In this document: positions 1,350 through 26,455 of the stretch, one piece after another
How the letters are laid out: each line of letters begins with the position of its first letter
Numbering within the stretch: the stretch's first letter is position 1
NCBI GenBank assembly: GCA_026415675.1
Contig: JAOAGQ010000047.1
Coordinates: 1-50,329, forward strand
From: Syntrophorhabdaceae bacterium
GTDB lineage: Bacteria; Desulfobacterota; Syntrophorhabdia; Syntrophorhabdales; Syntrophorhabdaceae
Direction: 5' to 3'
DNA: 50,329 nt
Notes under the pieces: generated by a model
What the model was told of the DNA's origin: nothing
Seen by the model: the letters and a program-made list of their open reading frames with translations, nothing else
Database searches by the model: none
Position numbers and translations under genes: made by a program

Positions 1350-3113
1350 TTGTTTTTAGCTACAACAGCCCTCGAAGAATTTTGGGATAAATCTAAAGAA
1401 ATACTATTTCTCGGTGAATGGTGTAAAATCTATTCCCGTAAACATATTTGGGAAAAATTAAAATATAGAGTATTGCCTTATCACTGGGATGACAGAAATA
1501 AGCTCTACAACGATTATCTTTATCTTGATGTTGTTTATGAAAGATATCTTGGTGTTCTTACTGAAATTCTCAATAAAAACCATAGAGAAAAACATAGTGA
1601 ACATTATTGGCGGATAATTATAGGTCCATGGCTTTTTTATTTTATAGAGATACTTTTTGATAGATATGAGTCTATAAAAAACGCAAGCGAATCAGGTATG
1701 GTAACAGATACATGGATTTTAAATTGCGAAGAAGACTTTTTTACACCTTACGATTTTGAAGATTTTTTTATAAATATCATCGATGATAATTACAATAATA
1801 TGTTGTTTAGCTATCTAATAAAAAAATGTGGTTCTATTCCTTACACCGTAAAAGGTTATAAACTGGAAATAAAGAATAATAGATTTTTTATAACTCATGG
1901 AACTTTTAGAAATTCATTGCTAAAATTATTAAGTATATATCATAAATGTTTACCTGATAGTTCAAAAAAATACATTTTTTTCCATTCTCGTTTAAAACTA
2001 AAAGATCTTATAAAACTCCAGGCAAAACTTAATCAGTTCCCAAGTCTATATACCGGTTATTCAATTAAATCCCCTCATTTTCGTGTAGATAAAATGCTGA
2101 GACAAAAAATATTATTAAAGGCTGGCACTAATAAATTTGAGAGTGTTCTTGACGTTTTGATACCCTATCAGATACCTTTTTTGTATATTGAGGGCTATGA
2201 TGAATTCAGAAGAGAAATTTACAAAGAATTGCCTGCAAAAGTAAAAATAATCTTTACTGCAAATGCCTCCATAGGCATTGAATCATTCAAATTCTGGGCA
2301 GCTGACCAGTGGGAGAAAGGTGCAAAGCTTATATTAACTCAACATGGGGGTCATCATGGAATGGCCCTATGGTCTTCGGAGTTAAAACACGAGATAGATA
2401 TTTCTGATGTCTATTTTTCTTGGGGTTGGAGTGATAAAAATAATAATAAGGTACACCCTATGCCATCAGGACAGTTATTTAAATTGAAGAAGAATAAAAT
2501 AAGACCAGATATAAATGGAGTGATTCTATGGGTGATGATGGGAATACCAAGATATTCATACTGGCTATATAGCATCCCCGTAAGCTCACAAATGCTCTCT
2601 TATTTTGATGAACAGAAGAGGTTTTATGAATGTTTAAGGGATGATATAAAGAAGCTATTATTATTAAAACCATATATGAAAGATTTTGGTTGGAACGACA
2701 GAATGAGATTTAGAGATCTAATGCCCGAAGCAATGCAGTATGATGGACGTTTATCTATGTTGGAATTGTTAAAGGATAGTCGTCTGTTTATAGGAACCTA
2801 TAATTCTACAACATACCTTGAAACATTTGTCGTCAATTTTCCTACAATTTTATTCTGGAATCCTAAGCATTGGGAATTGCAGGATGATGTTAAGTCATAC
2901 TTTGAGATGCTACACGATGTGGGAATGCTCCATGATACACCTGAATCCGCGGCAGTGAAAGTAAATGATATTTTTAGTGACCCCAACAAATGGTGGAATT
3001 CAGAAAGCGTACAGAGAGCACGGGTTTCTTTTTGTAATAGATTTGCGTTGACCGATGAAAAATGGATAGATATTTGGTCTGAAAAATTAAAGAGAGTTGA
3101 TGAATTGAAATGA
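1350..3113 (+). CDS. LIC12162-family surface-glycan transferase (putative)
   Basis: The 587-residue protein starts at TTG after an AAAGGA-type site. It resembles the LIC12162 family of putative transferases found in O-antigen regions. Supporting stretches are LATTALEEFWDKSKEILFLGEWC at the N terminus (which includes the TTG-encoded start region), a central TQHGGHHG, and a GT-B-like C-terminal half with a nucleotide-sugar-site-like region SRLFIGTYNSTTYLETF. The stop overlaps the next start by 4 bases (ATGA), so translation of the radical SAM gene is probably coupled. Family membership is by memory of sequence character and the donor and acceptor are unknown. No signal peptide or membrane segment is seen, so it is probably cytoplasmic. 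Confidence 0.65.
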   Translation: MFLATTALEEFWDKSKEILFLGEWCKIYSRKHIWEKLKYRVLPYHWDDRNKLYNDYLYLDVVYERYLGVLTEILNKNHREKHSEHYWRIIIGPWLFYFIEILFDRYESIKNASESGMVTDTWILNCEEDFFTPYDFEDFFINIIDDNYNNMLFSYLIKKCGSIPYTVKGYKLEIKNNRFFITHGTFRNSLLKLLSIYHKCLPDSSKKYIFFHSRLKLKDLIKLQAKLNQFPSLYTGYSIKSPHFRVDKMLRQKILLKAGTNKFESVLDVLIPYQIPFLYIEGYDEFRREIYKELPAKVKIIFTANASIGIESFKFWAADQWEKGAKLILTQHGGHHGMALWSSELKHEIDISDVYFSWGWSDKNNNKVHPMPSGQLFKLKKNKIRPDINGVILWVMMGIPRYSYWLYSIPVSSQMLSYFDEQKRFYECLRDDIKKLLLLKPYMKDFGWNDRMRFRDLMPEAMQYDGRLSMLELLKDSRLFIGTYNSTTYLETFVVNFPTILFWNPKHWELQDDVKSYFEMLHDVGMLHDTPESAAVKVNDIFSDPNKWWNSESVQRARVSFCNRFALTDEKWIDIWSEKLKRVDELK

Positions 3114-4625: not shown

Positions 4626-6146
4626 ATGTCAACAATCAGCAAAATAGGGAAAAATTTAAGGTTTATGATTGTAAACCGTTTAATTGCGCTACTTGTGTCA
4701 TTTCTTATTTTTCCATATATTGTATCCTATACGGGTAAGGAGGTATACGGTGTTTATCTTACGGTCATGACTATCACCGGCTATTTTGGGTTACTTGATT
4801 TTGGTGTTATGTCTGCTCTGACCAAATATGTCTCTGAGTATAATGGAAAGGGTGACTTAAAAAAAGTAAATGAAATTATAAATGCCTCTTTTACTTTTTA
4901 TACTGTTATAGGTATTTTGTCAGGAAGCTCGCTTTTTCTTGTGTTAGAATATTTCCCTTTTTTATTTAACATAAGGTTAGAAAATTTGGAGATTACAAAA
5001 AATTTATTTTTAGTCGCGGGAGTTTCCGCTTTTTTTATGTGGCCTGCAACAACTTTTCGAGGAACCATAGAAGGTTTAAATTTATGGGATATAGAAGCCA
5101 AAGTAAATATTTTTATTCAGGTTTTAAACGGATTATGTGCATTTATAATATTTAAAATTGGATACGGCATTGTCCATTTTTTTATATCATCTCAATTTCT
5201 TACAATAATAGGGAATATCTTTTTTTATATCATTGCAAAGAAAAAAACTGATTTAATTTTTATATTCCCATACATCAAACGGGATACATTTAAACACATA
5301 TTTAACTTCAGCGTGTTTGTTTTTTTGAGTGCCCTCTTAAATCTTTTTCTTTTTCAAATCCATAATATTATCATAGGTTATTTCATATCCATGTCAGCTG
5401 TCACCATTTATGCTGTAGCACACAACATTCAGAATTATTTCAGGTATATAAATTCCACATTGGGCGGTCCGCCCTGGACTGTGGCATCGGAGATGGAAGG
5501 TAAAGGTGATCTGGAGGGTCAAAGAAAGCTGCTTTTTAAAGGCACAAAATATATGAGTGCGATTTTTATTCCGATGGTTTTGATTTTCTTCTTTTTTGTC
5601 GAGCCTTTTATAAAGTATTGGATGGGCCCAGGTTTTGAAGAGAGTGTATCACCAGCAAGAATTGTTATTTTATTCTGGCTTTTTAATGGAACGCTTGAGA
5701 TAGCATCGGGTATGCTTTCTGCCAAAGGGATTGTTAGAAAACCCCTTTTAATTCATTTTTTTATTGCCTTTATAAATATCATTATGTCTATTTTATTTAT
5801 AAAAAAAATTGGTTTAATCGCCGTTGCCCTTGGGTTAACAGTGTCGATGATCTTTGGGTTTCCATTGATATTAAGGTTATCGTTAAATCATCTTCAGGTG
5901 ACCTTTTATGAATATTTTAAGAACACAATAAAAGATAATTTAAAAATATATATCTTTGTTTCGGTATGTTCATTTTTTGTTTCCAGAATATTATACCCTC
6001 AAAATATATACATAACTCTTGCTGAAATGGGATTGGTTTATGTGGCTACTATGTTTTTATATTATTTTTTGCTGCTCAATGATGAAGGAAAGGCTGAAAT
6101 TAAAATAATGTCAGGATTAAGCGGGTTTTTGAAGAAGGCAATTTAA
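4626..6146 (+). CDS. Wzx-type polysaccharide flippase
   Basis: The 506-residue, strongly hydrophobic protein has about 12-14 predicted membrane segments from residue 10 to the C terminus. It has the flippase-typical opening NRLIALLVSFLIFPYIVSYTG and the motif YGVYLTVMTITGYFGLLDFG. It would move undecaprenyl-diphosphate-linked repeat units across the inner membrane. It is the only recognised exporter in the window, and no ABC-type (Wzm/Wzt) genes are visible, so a Wzx-dependent system is favoured. No Wzy polymerase is certain; the membrane protein at 20373-21941 is one alternative candidate. It is spaced 16 bases from both neighbours. Confidence 0.85.
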   Translation: MSTISKIGKNLRFMIVNRLIALLVSFLIFPYIVSYTGKEVYGVYLTVMTITGYFGLLDFGVMSALTKYVSEYNGKGDLKKVNEIINASFTFYTVIGILSGSSLFLVLEYFPFLFNIRLENLEITKNLFLVAGVSAFFMWPATTFRGTIEGLNLWDIEAKVNIFIQVLNGLCAFIIFKIGYGIVHFFISSQFLTIIGNIFFYIIAKKKTDLIFIFPYIKRDTFKHIFNFSVFVFLSALLNLFLFQIHNIIIGYFISMSAVTIYAVAHNIQNYFRYINSTLGGPPWTVASEMEGKGDLEGQRKLLFKGTKYMSAIFIPMVLIFFFFVEPFIKYWMGPGFEESVSPARIVILFWLFNGTLEIASGMLSAKGIVRKPLLIHFFIAFINIIMSILFIKKIGLIAVALGLTVSMIFGFPLILRLSLNHLQVTFYEYFKNTIKDNLKIYIFVSVCSFFVSRILYPQNIYITLAEMGLVYVATMFLYYFLLLNDEGKAEIKIMSGLSGFLKKAI

Positions 6147-6162
6147 ATTATGAGGTTAGACA

Positions 6163-7899
6163 ATGGCAAATGAAATGAAGAAAAAGATAAAAATTCTCGA
6201 CTGTACAATTAGAGATGGTGGTTATTTAAATAACTGGAAATTTGAAAAAAAGATGGTAAAAGAATTGTACAGAGCATTATCACGGGCAGGGGTTGACTAT
6301 ATTGAGATCGGTTTTAGGGGAACAGAAAAATATTTTAATAGAAAAGAGTTCGGCACCTGGAGGTTCACCGACATAGAAGACATAAGAGATGTGGTAGGTG
6401 ATAAAACAGGTGCAAAAATAGCAATAATGGGAGATTTCGAAAAGTTTGATACAGAAGACATATCGGATGAATATATTGGTTATGTTGATCTTGTACGTAT
6501 TGCAGCACATAAGGATGGAATGTTAGGCGCTATTAAACAACTTGAATCTATAAAAGAAAAGGGTTTTACGGTTTCTCTGAATGCTATGGGAATAACAAGC
6601 TATAACGCAAAAGAGATAAAAGAATTAGTAAATACTCTTAAGGATTCAAACATAGATTATCTTTATATAGCAGATAGTTATGGTTCTCTCCTTCCTGATA
6701 TGATGAAAGGGCTCATAGAACCGTTTAAGAAGCTTAATCATGTAAAGATAGGTTTTCATCCCCACAACAGTCTTCAAATGGCATTTGCCAATACCCTTGA
6801 AGCCATAAAGCTCGAGGTGGATATGGTAGATTGTACCATATACGGTATGGGAAGAGGGGCTGGTAATTTACCTACAGAAGTATTACTTTCTTACCTACAG
6901 ATGATAACATCTGATAAATATAATGTTGTGCCGGTTTTACATCTTATTGATAGATACTTCCTTAATATAGAAACAGATGAACCATGGGGTTATCAATTGC
7001 CATATATGCTTTCCGGTATATTTCAATGTCACCCATATTATCCAAAAACATTAGTTGACTATAGAGAATATACCATGGAGGATATATGGAATGCCCTTGA
7101 GATGGTAAAAAAAGCAAACCCAATAGGTTTTTCCAAGGATCTAATAAATAAGATCATAAGGAGTGGTTTAATAGGTACCATAAAAAAAACTAATGAATTT
7201 CCTAGTGAAAAGAAAGGTGGTTTCCAAGAAATTACAAATAAAACCACAAAAAAACATATCCCTTATATGGAGAGACACAAAAATAGGGATTTCCTCATTC
7301 TTGCTAATGGACCTACTTTAAAAGAATATAAGGAAAAAATTAATATATTTATTAAAAAATTTGACCCGGTTGTCCTTGGTGCAAACTTCCTAGACAATCT
7401 TTTTATCCCTCATTATCACGCATTTACCAACAAAAAGCGCTTTATGGATTATGTTGACACGGTCCATAAAGATTCGTTGCTTTTAATTGGCGAAAACATT
7501 TCAGAAAATCTAATTAAAGAATACACTCAACGAGATTATGAAAGGTTGTATTTTGTTGATGAATTAAATGACTTTGATATAAAAAATGGTGTTATACAAA
7601 GTAATTGCAGAACGGTAGCAGTTCTTTTAATCGCAGTTGCGATTGTTATGGGTGCAAAAAGGATTTTCGCGGCTGGCCTTGATGGATATACTGGCATGAC
7701 ATCCATTAACGAATTTCATTTTTATAAAGAGAAAGTAGAGCCTGAGGAAAGAGAGTTGATAATCGAAAGGCATCGTTACAATCAACATTATCTTGAGCAG
7801 ATAGATAGTTATCTTAATAAGATGGATAGAGAAGGAATCCATATAATTACGCCTACAACCTATAAAGCCTTCTATAAAGGAATAGAAAACTATTTATAG
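6163..7899 (+). CDS. DRE-TIM pyruvate-type aldolase fused to a sialyltransferase/DUF115-like domain
   Basis: The 578-residue protein has two domains. Residues 1 to about 330 form an HMG-CoA lyase/4-hydroxy-2-oxovalerate aldolase-type barrel. It has LDCTIRDGGY at 12-21 (Arg17, Asp18), the metal-binding HPHN at 199-202 and GMGRGAGN at 228-235. After a Lys-rich linker, residues about 373-578 begin FLILANGPTLKEY and contain AVAIVMGAKRIFAAGLDGY. That layout resembles CMP-sialic-acid transferases of the GT42 (Cst) type or the DUF115/MptE-like fold. The aldolase domain should cleave or form a 4-hydroxy-2-oxo acid with pyruvate. The second domain may use the CMP-sugar made by the KdsB-like enzyme downstream; this is inference. 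The gene is 2 bases before the LdpA-like gene. Confidence 0.8.
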   Translation: MANEMKKKIKILDCTIRDGGYLNNWKFEKKMVKELYRALSRAGVDYIEIGFRGTEKYFNRKEFGTWRFTDIEDIRDVVGDKTGAKIAIMGDFEKFDTEDISDEYIGYVDLVRIAAHKDGMLGAIKQLESIKEKGFTVSLNAMGITSYNAKEIKELVNTLKDSNIDYLYIADSYGSLLPDMMKGLIEPFKKLNHVKIGFHPHNSLQMAFANTLEAIKLEVDMVDCTIYGMGRGAGNLPTEVLLSYLQMITSDKYNVVPVLHLIDRYFLNIETDEPWGYQLPYMLSGIFQCHPYYPKTLVDYREYTMEDIWNALEMVKKANPIGFSKDLINKIIRSGLIGTIKKTNEFPSEKKGGFQEITNKTTKKHIPYMERHKNRDFLILANGPTLKEYKEKINIFIKKFDPVVLGANFLDNLFIPHYHAFTNKKRFMDYVDTVHKDSLLLIGENISENLIKEYTQRDYERLYFVDELNDFDIKNGVIQSNCRTVAVLLIAVAIVMGAKRIFAAGLDGYTGMTSINEFHFYKEKVEPEERELIIERHRYNQHYLEQIDSYLNKMDREGIHIITPTTYKAFYKGIENYL

Positions 7900-7901
7900 A
7901 T

Positions 7902-8915
7902 ATGAACAGATTTATTTTATTGAAGAATTTGTTTGAAAAACGAAAGGTTTTTAAACTCGTATGCGGGGCAGGCAACGAAGATCCCAAAGAGGTAAGAAGA
8001 CTCTCTATGATTTACACATTGGCAGGAGCAGTTATCCATGATGTATCGGCAAATCCGAACATCGTAAGGGCTGCTGCAGAAGGTATAGATGATGCCTATC
8101 TTTTGGGAATCGAGATGAAAAAAAATATACCTGTAAGGCCTTATATAAATGTCAGTATTGGTATAAAAGGAGACCCACACATAAGGAAGGCTTACATTAT
8201 ATCTGAAAAATGTAGCAATTGTGGAACATGTGTTGACAAATGTAGACAAGAAGCAATTATAAAAAAGGATAATAAATGGTTTGTAGAAGAATACCGTTGT
8301 ATAGGTTGCGGGGAGTGTGAAAGGGTATGTCATAAAGAAGCCATTGGTTTTAATTTTAGGAGGGCAGATTTAAAAAAAATACTTCCAGATTGTATAGATG
8401 CAGGATGTGAGATGATGGAGCTACACGCCGTTTCAGAAAATGAAGAGGAAGTCATGGATGACTGGAGGCTCTTAAATAGTATCTTAAGAGATAATTATAT
8501 AAGTGTCTGTTTAGACAGATCTCTCCTCTCAAATAAACATCTAATCGAACGCATAAAAAATATGTATGCAATAACAGGAGAGAGGATGATTGTTCAGGCC
8601 GATGGTGTACCTATGAGCGGTGAGGGTGACGATTTCAATACAACCCTCCAGGCTATCGCTTGTGCCGATATAGTCATAAAAAGTGGTATACCTGTTGTTG
8701 TTTTAATTTCTGGCGGGACTAATAGTAAAAGTGGAATCCTTGCAAAACAATGCGAGGTAAATGCCCATGGGGTTTCGGTTGGAAGTTACGCCAGAAAAAT
8801 TGTACGTCCTTTTATAAAAGATGATAATTTTGCTAATGATAAAAAACTTATAAAAAAAGCGTTGGATATAGCTGAGAGTCTCGTAAAGTCCAATTTAGAG
8901 GCCTTCAATGGTTAA
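7902..8915 (+). CDS. LdpA-like iron-sulfur protein (two [4Fe-4S] motifs, barrel-like C domain)
   Basis: The 337-residue protein opens with FKLVCGAGNEDPKEVRRL and YTLAGAVIHDVSANPNIVRA, very like the start of cyanobacterial LdpA. Two ferredoxin motifs follow, with Cys104/107/110/114 and Cys133/136/139/143. The C-terminal part (about 160-337) has the repeated strand-helix rhythm of a TIM-type barrel (VCLDRSLL, MIVQADGVPMSGEGDD, PVVVLISGGTNSKSG). LdpA is known as a redox-sensing input to the cyanobacterial clock. That role is not expected here, and the operon position suggests an enzymatic or electron-transfer role in sugar-acid synthesis. Its stop overlaps the HAD start by 8 bases, a sign of translational coupling. 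Confidence 0.75.
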   Translation: MNRFILLKNLFEKRKVFKLVCGAGNEDPKEVRRLSMIYTLAGAVIHDVSANPNIVRAAAEGIDDAYLLGIEMKKNIPVRPYINVSIGIKGDPHIRKAYIISEKCSNCGTCVDKCRQEAIIKKDNKWFVEEYRCIGCGECERVCHKEAIGFNFRRADLKKILPDCIDAGCEMMELHAVSENEEEVMDDWRLLNSILRDNYISVCLDRSLLSNKHLIERIKNMYAITGERMIVQADGVPMSGEGDDFNTTLQAIACADIVIKSGIPVVVLISGGTNSKSGILAKQCEVNAHGVSVGSYARKIVRPFIKDDNFANDKKLIKKALDIAESLVKSNLEAFNG

Positions 8916-9681
8916 TATCCAGGTAGGTGACCATACCATTGAAAATATAGAGCTTGCAATTTTTGACAAGGATGGAACCATTATCGAGCTATATCATTAC
9001 TGGTCAAAGATGGTTTATTTCCGTGCGCTCTTTATCTGTAAGCGACTTGGATTAGATAATTCTCATATAAAAGGCCTTTCTTATGCAATGGGTGTAGATT
9101 TCGATGAAAAAAAACTGAAACCTGAAGGGCCTGTAGGGTTAAAAAAAAGAGAAATAGTGATGAAGGAGGCAATAAACTATCTTAAAGATTTGGGTTTTAA
9201 TGATACGGAGAATCTGTGTATAGAAGTTTTTAATGAAGTTGATGCTTATTCCCAAAATCATCTTGGAGATTTTATCAAACCGATAGATGGTGCCGTAGAA
9301 CTTTTGAGAAATCTTGCATACTATGGATGTAAGGTTGTCATTGCTACAACAGACATTTCGATTAGGGCAAAAATTGCTATGGAATTTCTTGGATTAGAAA
9401 ACTGTGTACATCTAATTGTAGGAGCTGAAATGGTAAAAAGACAAAAACCTTATTCTGATCAAATTGAATTTGCCCTTAATGTTTTTAATTGTAAAAAAGA
9501 TAATGCGATTATGGTAGGGGATGCTTTAATAGATGTAGAAATGGGTATAAATGCAGGACTAAAAGGCTCTATCGGCCTTTTAACGGGATTTGGCACATAC
9601 GATGAGTTTATTCGCATTACGCCTTATGTAGTGAACGATATATCGCAGATTAAAGTAAAAAAGGTATCTTATGAGAAATAA
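8908..9681 (+). CDS. HAD-family hydrolase (probable sugar-phosphate phosphatase)
   Basis: The 257-residue protein has all four HAD motifs. They are the nucleophile FDKDGT with Asp20 and Asp22, motif II VIATTD near 144, the motif III lysine in KRQKP, and motif IV VGDALIDVE near 205-212. A helical cap lies between motifs I and II. This is phosphoglycolate-phosphatase-like rather than the short KdsC type. In this operon it could remove phosphate from a 2-keto-3-deoxy sugar-acid phosphate before CMP activation, as KdsC does in the Kdo pathway; that is inference from context. It overlaps the upstream gene by 8 bases and the downstream gene by 11. Confidence 0.85.
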   Translation: MVNIQVGDHTIENIELAIFDKDGTIIELYHYWSKMVYFRALFICKRLGLDNSHIKGLSYAMGVDFDEKKLKPEGPVGLKKREIVMKEAINYLKDLGFNDTENLCIEVFNEVDAYSQNHLGDFIKPIDGAVELLRNLAYYGCKVVIATTDISIRAKIAMEFLGLENCVHLIVGAEMVKRQKPYSDQIEFALNVFNCKKDNAIMVGDALIDVEMGINAGLKGSIGLLTGFGTYDEFIRITPYVVNDISQIKVKKVSYEK

Positions 9682-10462
9682 ATTGAAAACAAAATTAAGA
9701 AATAAAAAAATCATATACGGGCCTTGGTGTACTATACCATCTCCTTCGGTGATAGAGATTATAGCTTCAACAGGAGTCGATTTTGTGATTATCGATATGG
9801 AACACGGTTGTCACAATTTTGAAACATTGGAGAACATGATAAGGGCTGCAGAGGTCAATGATTGCGGTAGTCTTGTAAGAGTACCTGCAAACGAAGAGAC
9901 TTCAATCCTAAAAGCTCTTGATCTTGGGGCTTCTGGTGTTATTATCCCGCACATTGAATCAAAAAGAGATGCTGAACTTGCCATTCAATATTCAAAGTAT
10001 AGTCCAATTGGTTCTAGGGGTTTTTCGCCTTTTACAAGAGCGGGTAATTATTCTCTCTATGGAATTAAAGAGCATGCGAAAAAGGAAAATGAAAGAACTT
10101 TACTGATACTTCTTTTGGAAGGAAGAGGGGGTGTCAATAATATTGACGATATCCTCTCGATAAAAAAAATTGATAAAAAGATAGACGGTATATATATAGG
10201 TGCCTATGATTTATCCCAATCACTTGGTCTACCAGGTCAGGTAGATCATGTAGATGTAATTAACACGATGAAAGAATTGATTGAAAAGATAAAGAGAAAG
10301 GGTATCGCAGCAGGTGGTTATGTTGCAAAAGATAAAAAGGACGTAGGATGGATGAAAGAAATGGGGATGCAGATAATTACCCTTTTACCTGACTGCACTA
10401 TTTTATACCATGCCTTTGAAGACCGTTATTTTAATTTTCATGATAAGGAGAAAATGCCATGA
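9671..10462 (+). CDS. HpcH/HpaI-family class II pyruvate aldolase
   Basis: The 263-residue protein matches the usual family length. Residues known to be catalytic in the HpaI family are visible: His45 in DMEHG, Arg70 in LVRVP, the metal ligands Glu150 in LLEGRG and Asp180 in GAYDLS, and the IIPHIES and GSRGFSPFTRAG loops. These enzymes reversibly add pyruvate to an aldehyde and give a 4-hydroxy-2-oxo acid. With a CMP-Kdo-synthetase homologue immediately downstream (4-base ATGA overlap), it is a good candidate for making the ulosonic acid skeleton instead of a KdsA/NeuB-type enzyme, none of which is visible here. The aldehyde acceptor is unknown. Confidence 0.88.
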   Translation: MRNKLKTKLRNKKIIYGPWCTIPSPSVIEIIASTGVDFVIIDMEHGCHNFETLENMIRAAEVNDCGSLVRVPANEETSILKALDLGASGVIIPHIESKRDAELAIQYSKYSPIGSRGFSPFTRAGNYSLYGIKEHAKKENERTLLILLLEGRGGVNNIDDILSIKKIDKKIDGIYIGAYDLSQSLGLPGQVDHVDVINTMKELIEKIKRKGIAAGGYVAKDKKDVGWMKEMGMQIITLLPDCTILYHAFEDRYFNFHDKEKMP

Positions 10463-11202
10463 AGGTAGTCGGTATGATTCCTGCGAGACTTCAATCAAGC
10501 AGGCTCCCGGAAAAAGCCTTAGTAGACATATGTGGTTTACCTATGGTTGTTCATACATGTAAAAGAGCACAGTTAGCAAAAAGCTTAAAAGAGGTTTATC
10601 TCGTTACTGATAGTGAACTGATTAAAAAGGTAGGTGAGTCCCATGGCATTAAAGTGATCATGACAGGAACACATCATAAGACCGGTTCTGACCGTCTCGC
10701 AGAAGCCTGCCGTTACATAGATTGTGATATAGTAGTGAATGTTCAGGGAGACGAACCTCTTGTAAATCCGGATCATATAGATGCGATTGTTAAGCCTCTT
10801 ATTGAAAATTCTGACGTAAAAATTTCTGTGGGGATAACACCATACACAAAAAAAAATAGCCCATCAGATATAAAAGCGGTTCTGGATCTTGAAGGTAATA
10901 TTCTTTATTGCTCGAGAAATGATTTACCAAGTGATGCAAGAACCCCTGTAGATATAATGTGGAAAATGTGTTTTATCGTACCTTTTAGAAAAAATTTTTT
11001 ATTAGAATACGCATCATGGCTTCCTACTCCTCTTGAAACTATAGAGTTTAACGAATATTTGAGGGTACTTGAACATGGGGTGAAGATAAGGGCGGTTAGA
11101 ATAGAAGATGCAAAGATTAGTGTTGATACCCCTGAGGACTTAGAAACGGTTAGGAGCTTAATGAAAGACGATAAAATTAGATACTTATATCAAAAAATAT
11201 AA
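10459..11202 (+). CDS. KdsB-like CMP-sugar-acid synthetase (3-deoxy-manno-octulosonate cytidylyltransferase family)
   Basis: The 247-residue protein matches KdsB in length and motifs. It has MIPARLQSSRLPEKAL at the CTP-binding N terminus, HHKTGSDRLAE (KdsB proteins normally have a GTDR form), VNVQGDEPLV, and a C-terminal TPLETIEFNEYLRVLEHG followed by ISVDTPEDLE. It should couple CTP to a 2-keto-3-deoxy acid and release diphosphate. Because it sits in a glycan operon with two pyruvate aldolases and a phosphatase, its substrate is probably a special ulosonic acid rather than the lipid A-core Kdo. A housekeeping kdsB would be expected elsewhere in the genome. The start overlaps the upstream stop by 4 bases. 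Confidence 0.87.
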   Translation: MKVVGMIPARLQSSRLPEKALVDICGLPMVVHTCKRAQLAKSLKEVYLVTDSELIKKVGESHGIKVIMTGTHHKTGSDRLAEACRYIDCDIVVNVQGDEPLVNPDHIDAIVKPLIENSDVKISVGITPYTKKNSPSDIKAVLDLEGNILYCSRNDLPSDARTPVDIMWKMCFIVPFRKNFLLEYASWLPTPLETIEFNEYLRVLEHGVKIRAVRIEDAKISVDTPEDLETVRSLMKDDKIRYLYQKI

Positions 11203-11218
11203 TAAAGACTATCCGATT

Positions 11219-13069
11219 ATGATTCTTGTTTACAATAAATCCTTTACGCCAAAAAAATTAAAAAAAAGATACAAAGGCAATTATACTTTTTTGTGTTTTA
11301 TAGATGATTATTTTGAGAGAAGAAAATGGGAGGATGGCCTTTCTGAAATATATGTAAAAATAGACATCAAGCACTTGTTAGAGGATAAGAAAACGGAGAT
11401 AAGGGAGAGTTATATCGATTTTTTAGATGGAATTGGAAAAGATTATGATGAGCTCTGGAGTTTATCGCCTATATCAGAACAAAATACTTATGTTTCAAAC
11501 TTATTTTTGGATTGTTGCAGACTCAAAATAATAGATGATTTTCTTGGAAAAGAAAAAGAGCAAGAATTAATAGTGATTGTTGATGATGTCTATCTTTTTG
11601 ATGCAATCATTCTTTTGTTAAACAGAAAAAGAAAAGACGTAAAGAGTATAAAAAAATTTATATTTTATATAGAAAAAATCAAACATCACTTTATTCCTTT
11701 ATATCACACACTCAAATTTATATTAATTTTTTTTCACAACAAGTATCTACAGTTTTTTTCCGGTGTTTCAAAATCCCCTGAAAGTGGTCAGGCCGATGAG
11801 AAATTAAATAACATAGTGCTCCACACATGGATAGATGATGGAGCTTTTTCAAATGACGGTACATACAGAGACAGGTACTTTGGAAGGTTGATAGAATGGT
11901 TTGAAAAAAATAAATATAGGATATTTATTGTTCCATATATATATAACATGAATAAACCTTTAAAGGATGTCTTAAAACTATTAAAAAATTCAAAAATAAA
12001 ATTTCTCATTCCTTTTGAATATTACAGTATATTTGATCTGTTTAAGGGTTTTTTTTGTATGATCAAAGTTTTATCTATTCCCAAAGGCCCTGTTTCTTTT
12101 TTACATATGGATATAGAAAAAATTATCAAAAGAGAAAAGCTGAGAAGAACAGGAGGTTTTCTCCCATTTTTTTTGTATTTAGATTTATTCATGCAATTTA
12201 AAAGAAAAGGTTTAACTTTTGACATAGCAATCGATGTATTTGAAGGAATGATACCTGAAAGGGCCTGGATTTTAGGCATAAAAAGGGCTTACAACAAAAC
12301 ATATACCATAGGGTACCAGCATACTATTTTTTCAAAAGACCTGCTCTGTTATTTTGTATATAAGGGCAATTCTTTAAAGGAAGTTTTGCCAGATAAGATT
12401 ATCTGTACCGGGCCTATGTTGAAAAATCTTTTGATAAGAGAGGGTTTACCGGAAAACCATATTGATGTTGGTTGTGCGTTAAGATATGAATATTTATGGA
12501 ATAAATTAAAACAACAATATGTTGATACACGGTTAACACCAGAAAACAGTAAAAAAAAGATATTAATAAGCCTTCCATTACAACATTCGGGGGCCATTGA
12601 ATTGATATATAAAACGGTAAACATAGCAAAAAAGAAGAAAGATATAAAATTTTTTATAAAACCTCACCCAATGATGAACAAAGATATCATCAAAGAAATG
12701 CTGAAAAATATAAATTGGCCGGATTATGATAATTCTATTGCAGATGGGCCTATGGACAACTGGATCTGGAATATTGACCTTCTTATTTCAACAGCTTCTG
12801 CAGCCATTATGGATGCGTTGGTTGTGGGAAAGCCAATTTTAATTATTGGGAGAGAAGGTGTTTTAGATTTAAACCCCCTTGACTGGATTGAATCGGAATA
12901 TACTATGGTCTATTCTGAACAAAGTGAGATAGAGAAGCGGATAGATAAGCTTCTTTATCTTGATCAAACTGAACTTGAAAAATTAAAACAGTTTGGAATA
13001 GAAATCATGAAAGGTTGTTTTAATGAAATAACAGATGACAATCTAAAGGTGTTTGTTTCACAAACTTAA
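11219..13069 (+). CDS. Putative GT-B-type glycan transferase, family not recognised
   Basis: The protein has 616 residues. The N-terminal half (1 to about 300) shows no motif I can name and is rich in aromatic and lysine residues. The C-terminal half has a glycosyltransferase-B character: ISLPLQHSGA, FFIKPHPMM near residue 475, then LLISTASAAIMDALVVGKP and ILIIGREGV near 520-545. This resembles KpsC/LIC12162-like transferases that use CMP- or nucleotide sugars. It directly follows the CMP-sugar synthetase (16 bases), so it is a reasonable candidate for the transferase that uses that product. No signal peptide or clear transmembrane helix is seen. Function is inferred from the C-terminal half only. 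Confidence 0.55.
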   Translation: MILVYNKSFTPKKLKKRYKGNYTFLCFIDDYFERRKWEDGLSEIYVKIDIKHLLEDKKTEIRESYIDFLDGIGKDYDELWSLSPISEQNTYVSNLFLDCCRLKIIDDFLGKEKEQELIVIVDDVYLFDAIILLLNRKRKDVKSIKKFIFYIEKIKHHFIPLYHTLKFILIFFHNKYLQFFSGVSKSPESGQADEKLNNIVLHTWIDDGAFSNDGTYRDRYFGRLIEWFEKNKYRIFIVPYIYNMNKPLKDVLKLLKNSKIKFLIPFEYYSIFDLFKGFFCMIKVLSIPKGPVSFLHMDIEKIIKREKLRRTGGFLPFFLYLDLFMQFKRKGLTFDIAIDVFEGMIPERAWILGIKRAYNKTYTIGYQHTIFSKDLLCYFVYKGNSLKEVLPDKIICTGPMLKNLLIREGLPENHIDVGCALRYEYLWNKLKQQYVDTRLTPENSKKKILISLPLQHSGAIELIYKTVNIAKKKKDIKFFIKPHPMMNKDIIKEMLKNINWPDYDNSIADGPMDNWIWNIDLLISTASAAIMDALVVGKPILIIGREGVLDLNPLDWIESEYTMVYSEQSEIEKRIDKLLYLDQTELEKLKQFGIEIMKGCFNEITDDNLKVFVSQT

Positions 13070-18010: not shown

Positions 18011-18619
18011 TTGGCGAAAAGGATTTTTGACCTATCCTTGGCTATCGTACTTTTTGTTATCCTTTCCCCGGTTATAATTGTCATTGCCATCGTGGTATAC
18101 ATCTCGATGGGAGCCCCGGTGATATTTAAACAATTAAGACCGGGGTTATATGGAAAACCTTTTGAAATTTTTAAGTTCCGCACGATGACCGATGATAGGG
18201 ATGAAAAGGGAAATCTATTATCAGATGGTAAAAGGCTTACCCCCGTTGGTAGGTTTTTAAGAAAAACAAGCCTCGATGAACTGCCTCAATTATTAAATGT
18301 GATAAAGGGAGATCTGAGTTTTGTGGGACCCAGACCCCTTCTAATGGAGTACCTGCCCCGATATACGCCAGAGCAGGCAAGACGCCATGAAGTAAAACCC
18401 GGCATCACAGGCTGGGCGCAGATAAAAGGGAGGAATGCGATCACCTGGGAGGAAAGGTTCAAACTCGATGTTTGGTATGTTGACAATAGATCTTTTTGGC
18501 TTGATATAAAGATTATTTTTTGTACTATAGTGGAAGTTTTTAAAAAACGGGGAATCAACGCGCCTGGGTATGATACCATGCCTGAGTTTATGGGTTCAGA
18601 AAATAAAACAGGTGTTTAA
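18011..18619 (+). CDS. Monotopic phosphoglycosyl transferase (PglC-like)
   Basis: The 202-residue protein matches the small PglC type. It has an N-terminal re-entrant hydrophobic helix (LSLAIVLFVILSPVIIVIAI) and the catalytic Asp-Glu dyad in SLDELPQLLNVIKGDLSFVG, with the following PRPLL and GITGWAQIKGRN motifs. It transfers a phospho-sugar from a UDP-sugar to undecaprenyl phosphate at the inner membrane and starts glycan assembly. Downstream PglD-, PglE- and PglF-like genes indicate UDP-diacetylbacillosamine as the donor. The start is TTG, 5 bases after the GT4 stop. A second phosphoglycosyl transferase lies at 25844-26455. Confidence 0.9.
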   Translation: MAKRIFDLSLAIVLFVILSPVIIVIAIVVYISMGAPVIFKQLRPGLYGKPFEIFKFRTMTDDRDEKGNLLSDGKRLTPVGRFLRKTSLDELPQLLNVIKGDLSFVGPRPLLMEYLPRYTPEQARRHEVKPGITGWAQIKGRNAITWEERFKLDVWYVDNRSFWLDIKIIFCTIVEVFKKRGINAPGYDTMPEFMGSENKTGV

Positions 18620-25843: not shown

Positions 25844-26455
25844 ATGAGAACCGCAAAAAGACTTTTCGATATTGTGGTCTCAACAATGGGTCTTATATTC
25901 TCTATTCCTATATGGTTTATGATTGCTATTGGAATAAAACTCGAAGATGGGGGACCGATCTTTTATTTTCAAGATAGGGTTGGGAAAAACGGAAGGATTT
26001 TTAAGGTGATAAAATTCCGTTCTATGATTGTAGATGCTGAAAAGGAAGGTGTACCTCTACAGGCAGTCGAAAACGATCCAAGGGTAACAAAAATTGGGAG
26101 AATATTGAGAAAAATGGCCATGGACGAACTGCCCCAGTTGATAAACATTCTAAAGGGGGATATGAGTTTTGTAGGTCCAAGGGCCCTCCGTCCTGAGGAG
26201 AAGGAGGTAAGGGGAGGAAATATATCCGTCCCCATGAAGGAGATACCAGGGTATAGAAAAAGACTTACCGTAACCCCTGGTCTTACCGGTCTTGCCCAGG
26301 TATATCTGCCTGCGGATGCACCAAGACGTAAAAAATTTAGATACGATAACCTGTATATAAAAAAACAGTCCTTTTTTCTTGATATGAAACTTATAGTCCT
26401 TTCTTTTTGGATTACATTTAGAGGTAAATGGGAAGTGCAGGGTAAGAAATTATAA
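25844..26455 (+). CDS. Monotopic phosphoglycosyl transferase (second copy)
   Basis: The 203-residue bacterial sugar transferase has an N-terminal membrane-embedded helix (IVVSTMGLIFSIPIWFMIAI), the Asp-Glu dyad in AMDELPQLINILKGDMSFVG, and PRALRPEE plus TPGLTGLAQVY. It differs from the PglC-like copy at 18011 by a longer loop after PRAL (about 25 residues) and by the C terminus. It would start a lipid-linked glycan from another nucleotide sugar, or the same one in another pathway. It is the last gene of the polysaccharide locus; the next gene starts 39 bases later after a purine-rich stretch, with no terminator seen. Confidence 0.9.
   Translation: MRTAKRLFDIVVSTMGLIFSIPIWFMIAIGIKLEDGGPIFYFQDRVGKNGRIFKVIKFRSMIVDAEKEGVPLQAVENDPRVTKIGRILRKMAMDELPQLINILKGDMSFVGPRALRPEEKEVRGGNISVPMKEIPGYRKRLTVTPGLTGLAQVYLPADAPRRKKFRYDNLYIKKQSFFLDMKLIVLSFWITFRGKWEVQGKKL

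Follow-up and report, generated by a model that had tools for sequence, protein, structure and literature searches.

A five-gene cassette from a Syntrophorhabdaceae bacterium that probably encodes a pyruvate aldolase-based route to a CMP-activated 2-keto-3-deoxy sugar acid

The textbook 2-keto-3-deoxy sugars that are activated with cytidine monophosphate (CMP), i.e. Kdo, sialic acid, pseudaminic acid, legionaminic acid and Kdn, are made by pathways that begin with a synthase dependent on phosphoenolpyruvate (PEP). Closest to the locus described here are the Kdo pathway (KdsA-KdsC-KdsB) and the sialic and other nonulosonic acid pathways (NeuB-NeuA) with their GT29, GT42 or Maf transferases. The locus is a five-gene cassette in a stretch of 50,329 nucleotides (the window; contig JAOAGQ010000047.1 of assembly GCA_026415675.1, Syntrophorhabdaceae bacterium), encoding an HMGL-like (DRE-TIM) aldolase fusion, an LdpA-like Fe-S protein, a HAD-family phosphatase, an HpcH/HpaI-type aldolase and a KdsB-like cytidylyltransferase (open reading frames ORF1 to ORF5). 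Probably, this cassette is an additional, PEP-independent route to a non-Kdo CMP-activated 2-keto-3-deoxy (ulosonic) acid for the surrounding surface polysaccharide. Gene content, conservation, gene fusions, pocket changes and paralogy are observed, and the chemistry, the order of the steps and the product are inferred from these.

With the Kdo pathway, the cassette shares C-C bond formation, dephosphorylation and CMP activation by a cytidylyltransferase of the KdsB family. However, a pyruvate aldolase stands in for the PEP-dependent KdsA, the KdsB pocket is altered, the HAD enzyme is from another subfamily, LdpA and HpcH are extra, and a canonical Kdo pathway is also present in the genome. 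The NeuB-NeuA pathways would have the CMP-activated 2-keto-3-deoxy acid and a sialyltransferase-like transfer to the acceptor in common with the cassette, but NeuB is lacking, the activating enzyme is of the KdsB and not the NeuA type, and a transferase-like domain is fused to the aldolase. The original prediction, made from the sequence of the window, had delimited the five ORFs and their spacing exactly (a 2-base gap and overlaps of 8, 11 and 4 bases), and its family assignments hold by profile matches (HMGL-like, LdpA, HAD, HpcH_HpaI and CTP_transf_3; Table 1).

The KdsB-like enzyme scores 162.5 bits against TIGR00466 (kdsB), over the cut-off of 155.2, and narrowly misses the subfamily model PRK13368 (252.8 vs 255). 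Its catalytic residues R10, R15, K19, Q98 and D100 (E. coli numbering, as for all KdsB residues below) are identical in 24 aligned KdsB sequences, in agreement with the KdsB-like cytidylyltransferase first proposed. The pocket is non-canonical, with Arg164 changed to Ala, His181 to Met, Tyr185 to Val and Gln211 to Tyr. His181, Tyr185 and Gln211 line the Kdo site. In 11 canonical KdsBs, E. coli included, these three are invariant, Arg164 is kept in all but one, and the pocket motif reads K/R-H-x-G-x-Y-x-F/Y. Both His181 and Gln211 are lost in all 12 bacterial aldolase-linked KdsBs and kept in all 11 canonical ones. The KdsBs of a Leisingera plasmid (NZ_CP081095), of the genomes G083 and G214, which are from two other families of the phylum, and of nearly all viral fusions described below carry Gln-Val-Cys-(Ile/Val)-Tyr, with Ile or Leu at position 211. 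In the viral set, where one of the scan patterns picks out the altered motif and so introduces a bias, KdsA neighbours only KdsBs containing His181 (two clusters), and the aldolase is never found with such KdsBs. The KdsB tree leaves a single clade for the aldolase-linked enzymes undecided. Given the changed pocket residues, the cassette was judged unlikely to be simply redundant with canonical Kdo synthesis. A separate viral group of KdsB-like proteins (L234, L250, L263 and similar loci) has a QLGLY pocket with Met at position 211 and an adjoining HAD gene, with neither KdsA nor an HMGL aldolase nearby.

Next, the pairing of aldolase and KdsB was followed in the phylum of the window, in plasmids and in phages and viral contigs (IMG/VR), so that other bacterial phyla are represented only through plasmids and phages. 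A full-length ORF1-type fusion was found by profile in G083 and G214, each with a KdsB-like gene nearby and no full-length LdpA. On the Leisingera plasmid, ORF1-like, KdsB-like and HAD genes stand in a row; this plasmid and two genomes of other families provide independent aldolase/KdsB pairs (L048, L092 and L093). A scan of IMG/VR with diverse aldolase domains returned 67 loci, duplicates included, of which 46 have a KdsB-like domain, 9 a thiamine diphosphate (ThDP) enzyme and 12 neither. Taken together with a KdsB scan of the same database, 59 viral ORFs (duplicates included) carry the aldolase (about residues 1-325) and the KdsB domain (about 330-570) in one protein. These cluster into 23, 17 and 9 groups at 90%, 70% and 50% identity, respectively; in two of the 23 (L165 and L180) the KdsB match is weak, leaving about 20 clear non-redundant fusions, with L142 4998-6692 and L152 4953-6722 as examples. 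Since the fusion recurs at such sequence divergence, it is strong evidence that aldolase and KdsB belong to one pathway. Of the 21 non-redundant viral fusions, 16 have a separate MptE-like or GT29 sialyltransferase gene within about 5 kb, as against none of the 24 other KdsB loci and none of the eight aldolase-ThDP loci of the viral set; this fits a CMP-ulosonate as product. Therefore, the partnership of a pyruvate aldolase with the KdsB-like enzyme that had been predicted is strongly supported, both by fusions and by separate pairs. No description of it was found in the literature searched, with subscription journals outside that search. KDG-kinase-like genes also occur beside the aldolase (L092 3161-4189, L106 8119-9165 and L179 3193), in L092 and L106 with a cytidylyltransferase close by, and in G390 a KDG-kinase-like gene and a PseF-like cytidylyltransferase accompany an ORF1-like protein.

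The aldolase domain of ORF1 has the 'putative aldolase' 3dxi as its best profile match in the Protein Data Bank (PDB; E 2e-67), followed by 4-hydroxy-2-oxovalerate aldolases. With DmpG/MhpE and 3dxi it shares the DRE-TIM fold, the metal ligands and the expected pyruvate donor; it differs from them in its biosynthetic setting, in a Tyr for His at position 21 and in its fusion to an MptE-like or KdsB domain. The Asp-His-His ligands (D18, H199 and H201) are invariant in the alignments, so that the catalytic residues claimed for both aldolases stand for the metal site of this one and fail at position 21, the catalytic His of HOA aldolases. The aldolase fusion announced by the original prediction is likewise right for the aldolase, and its partner domain had been missed. 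The six best PDB profile matches of this C-terminal domain are GT42 sialyltransferases, all weak (E 0.05-0.3), and the domain may be MptE/Maf-like with a weak similarity to that family. The AlphaFold model of the fusion is poor beyond residue 265, with a predicted local distance difference test (pLDDT) mostly below 40 in the C-terminal domain. As locus L094 pairs an ORF1-like protein, seemingly with the same C-terminal domain (by eye), with a ThDP enzyme, a transferase role of this domain is not proven. Stand-alone HMGL aldolases of 316-321 residues and about 35% identity occur in other genomes of the phylum (L096, L097 and L099), near gap-pgk-tpi-like genes and/or a short KDPG-aldolase-like gene.

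Where contigs allow, ten genomes of the window's family, from at least five genera, keep the cassette genes together and in an unchanged order. The order is the same in nine of nine fetched related neighbourhoods, as far as the contigs reach, and the arrangement is therefore not due to chance; the joint conservation of the five genes, on which the prediction depended, thus recurs in related genomes. In L039, HpcH and KdsB are separated by an additional radical SAM gene. Of 39 sampled genomes of the family, 10 encode a full-length LdpA-like protein (60-78% identical), and a profile search of 395 genomes of the phylum yielded none beyond those ten; a single-sequence scan of genome contigs matched the G013 contig only. 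The upstream genes vary among related genomes. In contrast, wherever the contig of a related genome extends far enough, a LIC13510-like glycosyltransferase gene lies 3' of the cassette, followed by an aminotransferase gene, with an intervening methyltransferase in the window and in L038. In L092 and L093, relatives of this glycosyltransferase are neighbours of the aldolase and KdsB. It has no relative among solved structures, and its Pfam matches are weak at best.

The absence of KdsA and NeuB, as originally predicted, is true for the window but not for the genome (G000), in which KdsA (L002), followed by a KdsD-type SIS-CBS protein, is on contig C20 and a canonical KdsB (L003) on contig C50, the window being contig C52. 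Hence the cassette enzyme is not the only CMP-Kdo synthetase candidate of the genome. All 13 genomes checked have a KdsA relative and a KdsB match outside the cassette that scores higher; no KdsA is found in the cassette. The cassette pathway is therefore additional to Kdo synthesis and does not replace it, contrary to the prediction.

Could ORF5 then be a second CMP-Kdo synthetase for polysaccharide Kdo, with the aldolases serving unrelated or catabolic steps? Its score above the kdsB cut-off and the KdsA of the genome would agree with this. However, all four pocket residues are changed, whereas the canonical KdsBs of the same genomes almost always retain them, the aldolase is fused to KdsB in viral contigs, and no KdsA gene was found near the aldolase in viral loci, which makes this explanation improbable. 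About equally improbable is a branched or chain-extended nucleotide sugar, in which a 2-oxo acid built by the aldolases is attached to a different sugar, in the manner of yersiniose or erwiniose clusters, and KdsB serves a separate residue. The same aldolase family does stand beside IlvB/YerE-like ThDP enzymes in other clusters (L187, L188, L193, L195, L196, L199-L201 and L094), several with RfbH, and L051 combines it with transketolase halves and RfbH; the gene content of these loci suggests branched-sugar synthesis. L054 even combines LdpA, HAD, HMGL and HpcH with a ThDP enzyme and RfbH on a contig that lacks KdsB. Against this, the ORFs listed for the window include neither a ThDP enzyme nor RfbH, KdsB is never found in one viral locus with a ThDP enzyme, and two viral contigs carry LdpA-HAD-HpcH-KdsB without ThDP. 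The YerE/ErwE clusters and the cassette would thus share an aldolase family supplying a 4-hydroxy-2-oxo acid to a surface-sugar enzyme, the former having a ThDP carboligase and RfbH and the latter KdsB. ErwE, related to the YerE-like ThDP enzymes, prefers 4-hydroxy-2-oxo acid donors (PMC12247030). Because of this preference and the ThDP pairing, we infer a 4-hydroxylated 2-oxo acid, as an HOA-type pyruvate aldolase would make, as the common substrate of the KdsB and ThDP partners.

A third explanation, a CMP-activated non-sugar acid such as a modified 2-oxo acid or a phosphonate-like group in place of a ulosonic acid, appears very improbable. The HpcH fold resembles that of PEP mutase, which would suit such a product. 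So would the related nucleotidyltransferases that activate phosphonates for cell-surface tailoring (PMC6697681). Nevertheless, family and catalytic residues are of the KdsB type, and sialyltransferase-type genes accompany the aldolase-KdsB fusions as KDG-kinase-like genes do related cassettes. A ulosonic acid pathway has points of its own to answer. The ORF1 aldolase is under the cut-off for every named aldolase model that it matched (107 vs 286 bits required for the 4-hydroxy-2-oxovalerate aldolase equivalog TIGR03217), and the Tyr at position 21 replaces the His expected in HOA aldolases. A recognised HAD gene is absent from most viral fusion loci, and many aldolase-KdsB systems lack both HpcH and LdpA. 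Moreover, 21 non-redundant viral KdsBs lack both His181 and an HMGL gene within about 5 kb, so the altered pocket is not confined to KdsBs with an aldolase partner. All of these weigh against the proposed route.

LdpA was held to be restricted to cyanobacteria in a survey of 11,264 genomes (PMC5520375). ORF2 matches PF12617 (LdpA_C) over the cut-off (1e-14), and the LdpA equivalog NF045992 with 7.5e-44, at 150.3 of the 450 bits required. It shares with the cyanobacterial circadian input protein full-length homology, the two-cluster ferredoxin and the LdpA C-terminal domain, but it belongs to a sugar operon, is encoded by a non-cyanobacterium and by viral contigs, and scores far under that equivalog cut-off. 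The cluster cysteines C104, C107, C110, C114, C133, C136, C139 and C143 are invariant in alignments A2 and A3, including a 42% identical viral homologue. In an AlphaFold model (pLDDT 75, predicted TM-score 0.77), calculated from alignments leaving out the loci fetched from sampled genomes, an eight-stranded TIM barrel carries the inserted 2[4Fe-4S] ferredoxin domain, the latter at low confidence. The best VIA-align matches are aldolases (Z about 17); the predicted TIM-barrel fold class is clear, and a particular aldolase kinship is not, as Foldseek and VIA-align return many TIM barrels. Since many of the residues conserved down to the viral homologue are modelled at the C-terminal ends of the eight strands or immediately beyond them, the protein is suggested to be an enzyme. 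A tblastn search of plasmids and phages with ORF2 gave no match. In the viral contigs L214 and L219, LdpA-HAD-HpcH-KdsB occurs in the order of the window, and a second, distant HpcH-like protein stands at the head instead of the HMGL aldolase (L214 1978-2727 and L219 1989-2771). Judged by this recurrence, the Fe-S protein belongs to the cassette; the original prediction had given it no place in known versions, and relative to the Kdo pathway it is an extra component. HpcH and LdpA travel together by gene neighbourhood, as both are in L214, L219 and L054; HAD genes are in the L054, L214 and Leisingera cassettes. The HpcH of the window is 34-40% identical to those of the viral cassettes and reaches 147.5 of the 368.8 bits required by TIGR02311 (HpaI/GarL equivalog). 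Of the two aldolases predicted in the place of KdsA/NeuB, the HMGL enzyme is retained; HpcH is not consistently tied to KdsB in independent systems.

In the proposed route, the HMGL-type aldolase would join pyruvate to a sugar-derived, probably phosphorylated aldehyde, giving a 4-hydroxy-2-oxo (2-keto-3-deoxy) acid. The HAD enzyme would remove the phosphate, and the KdsB-like enzyme with its altered pocket would form the CMP-sugar. Candidates for the transfer are the MptE/Maf/GT42-like domain of ORF1 and the downstream LIC13510-like glycosyltransferase. The LdpA-like protein and HpcH may together prepare or modify the chain as an accessory module. The cassette is embedded in a surface-polysaccharide gene cluster with further glycosyltransferases (Table 1), including a member of the LIC12162 transferase family, known from Leptospira O-antigen clusters.

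Table 1. Genes, domains and motifs of the cassette and neighbouring features (positions in the window)
Feature	Position	Strand	Details
ORF1: HMGL-like (DRE-TIM) aldolase fusion	6163-7899	+	578 aa
HMGL-like (DRE-TIM) pyruvate aldolase domain of ORF1	6163-7152	+	PF00682 3e-29
Putative C-terminal MptE/Maf (DUF115)-like domain of ORF1 (residues 365-578)	7255-7899	+	PF01973 1.2e-6, below Pfam cut-off
ORF2: LdpA-like Fe-S protein	7902-8915	+	337 aa
Ferredoxin insert in LdpA-like protein	8187-8366	+	eight cluster cysteines
ORF3: HAD-family phosphatase	8908-9681	+	257 aa; PF13419 1.2e-21
ORF4: HpcH/HpaI-type pyruvate aldolase	9671-10462	+	263 aa; PF03328 2.1e-31; TIGR02311 4e-43, below cut-off
ORF5: KdsB-like CMP-ulosonate synthetase (predicted), paralogue of the genome's canonical KdsB	10459-11202	+	247 aa; CTP_transf_3 1.5e-42
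Changed substrate-pocket motif KMCFIVPF in KdsB-like enzyme	10963-10986	+	alignment with 11 canonical KdsBs
Putative glycosyltransferase (TIGR04326/LIC13510-like), candidate acceptor-side transferase	11219-13069	+	TIGR04326 8e-19
Flippase	4626-6146		surface-polysaccharide cluster
LIC12162-type transferase	1350-3113		524-bit match (very strong) to LIC12162 transferase family
Initiating sugar-phosphate transferases	18011-18619 and 25844-26455		surface-polysaccharide cluster

If this reading is correct, entry by a pyruvate aldolase would be a second chemical logic for CMP-activated 2-keto-3-deoxy sugars, and an HMGL aldolase together with a KdsB lacking His181 would be a signature for finding new surface sugars. 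Phages would have gained a compact two-step CMP-sugar enzyme, fused in the roughly 20 non-redundant viral ORFs. More tentatively, and somewhat less likely true than false, bacteria and viruses may share an unrecognised class of CMP-ulosonic acid biosynthesis, in which a DRE-TIM aldolase replaces KdsA/NeuB and an LdpA-type enzyme and a second aldolase build a novel modified or extended ulosonic acid, with the LdpA of the cyanobacterial clock derived from, or sharing its fold with, a sugar enzyme. Through the conserved association of an LdpA homologue with sugar synthesis, the biochemistry of LdpA becomes open to testing in organisms other than cyanobacteria.

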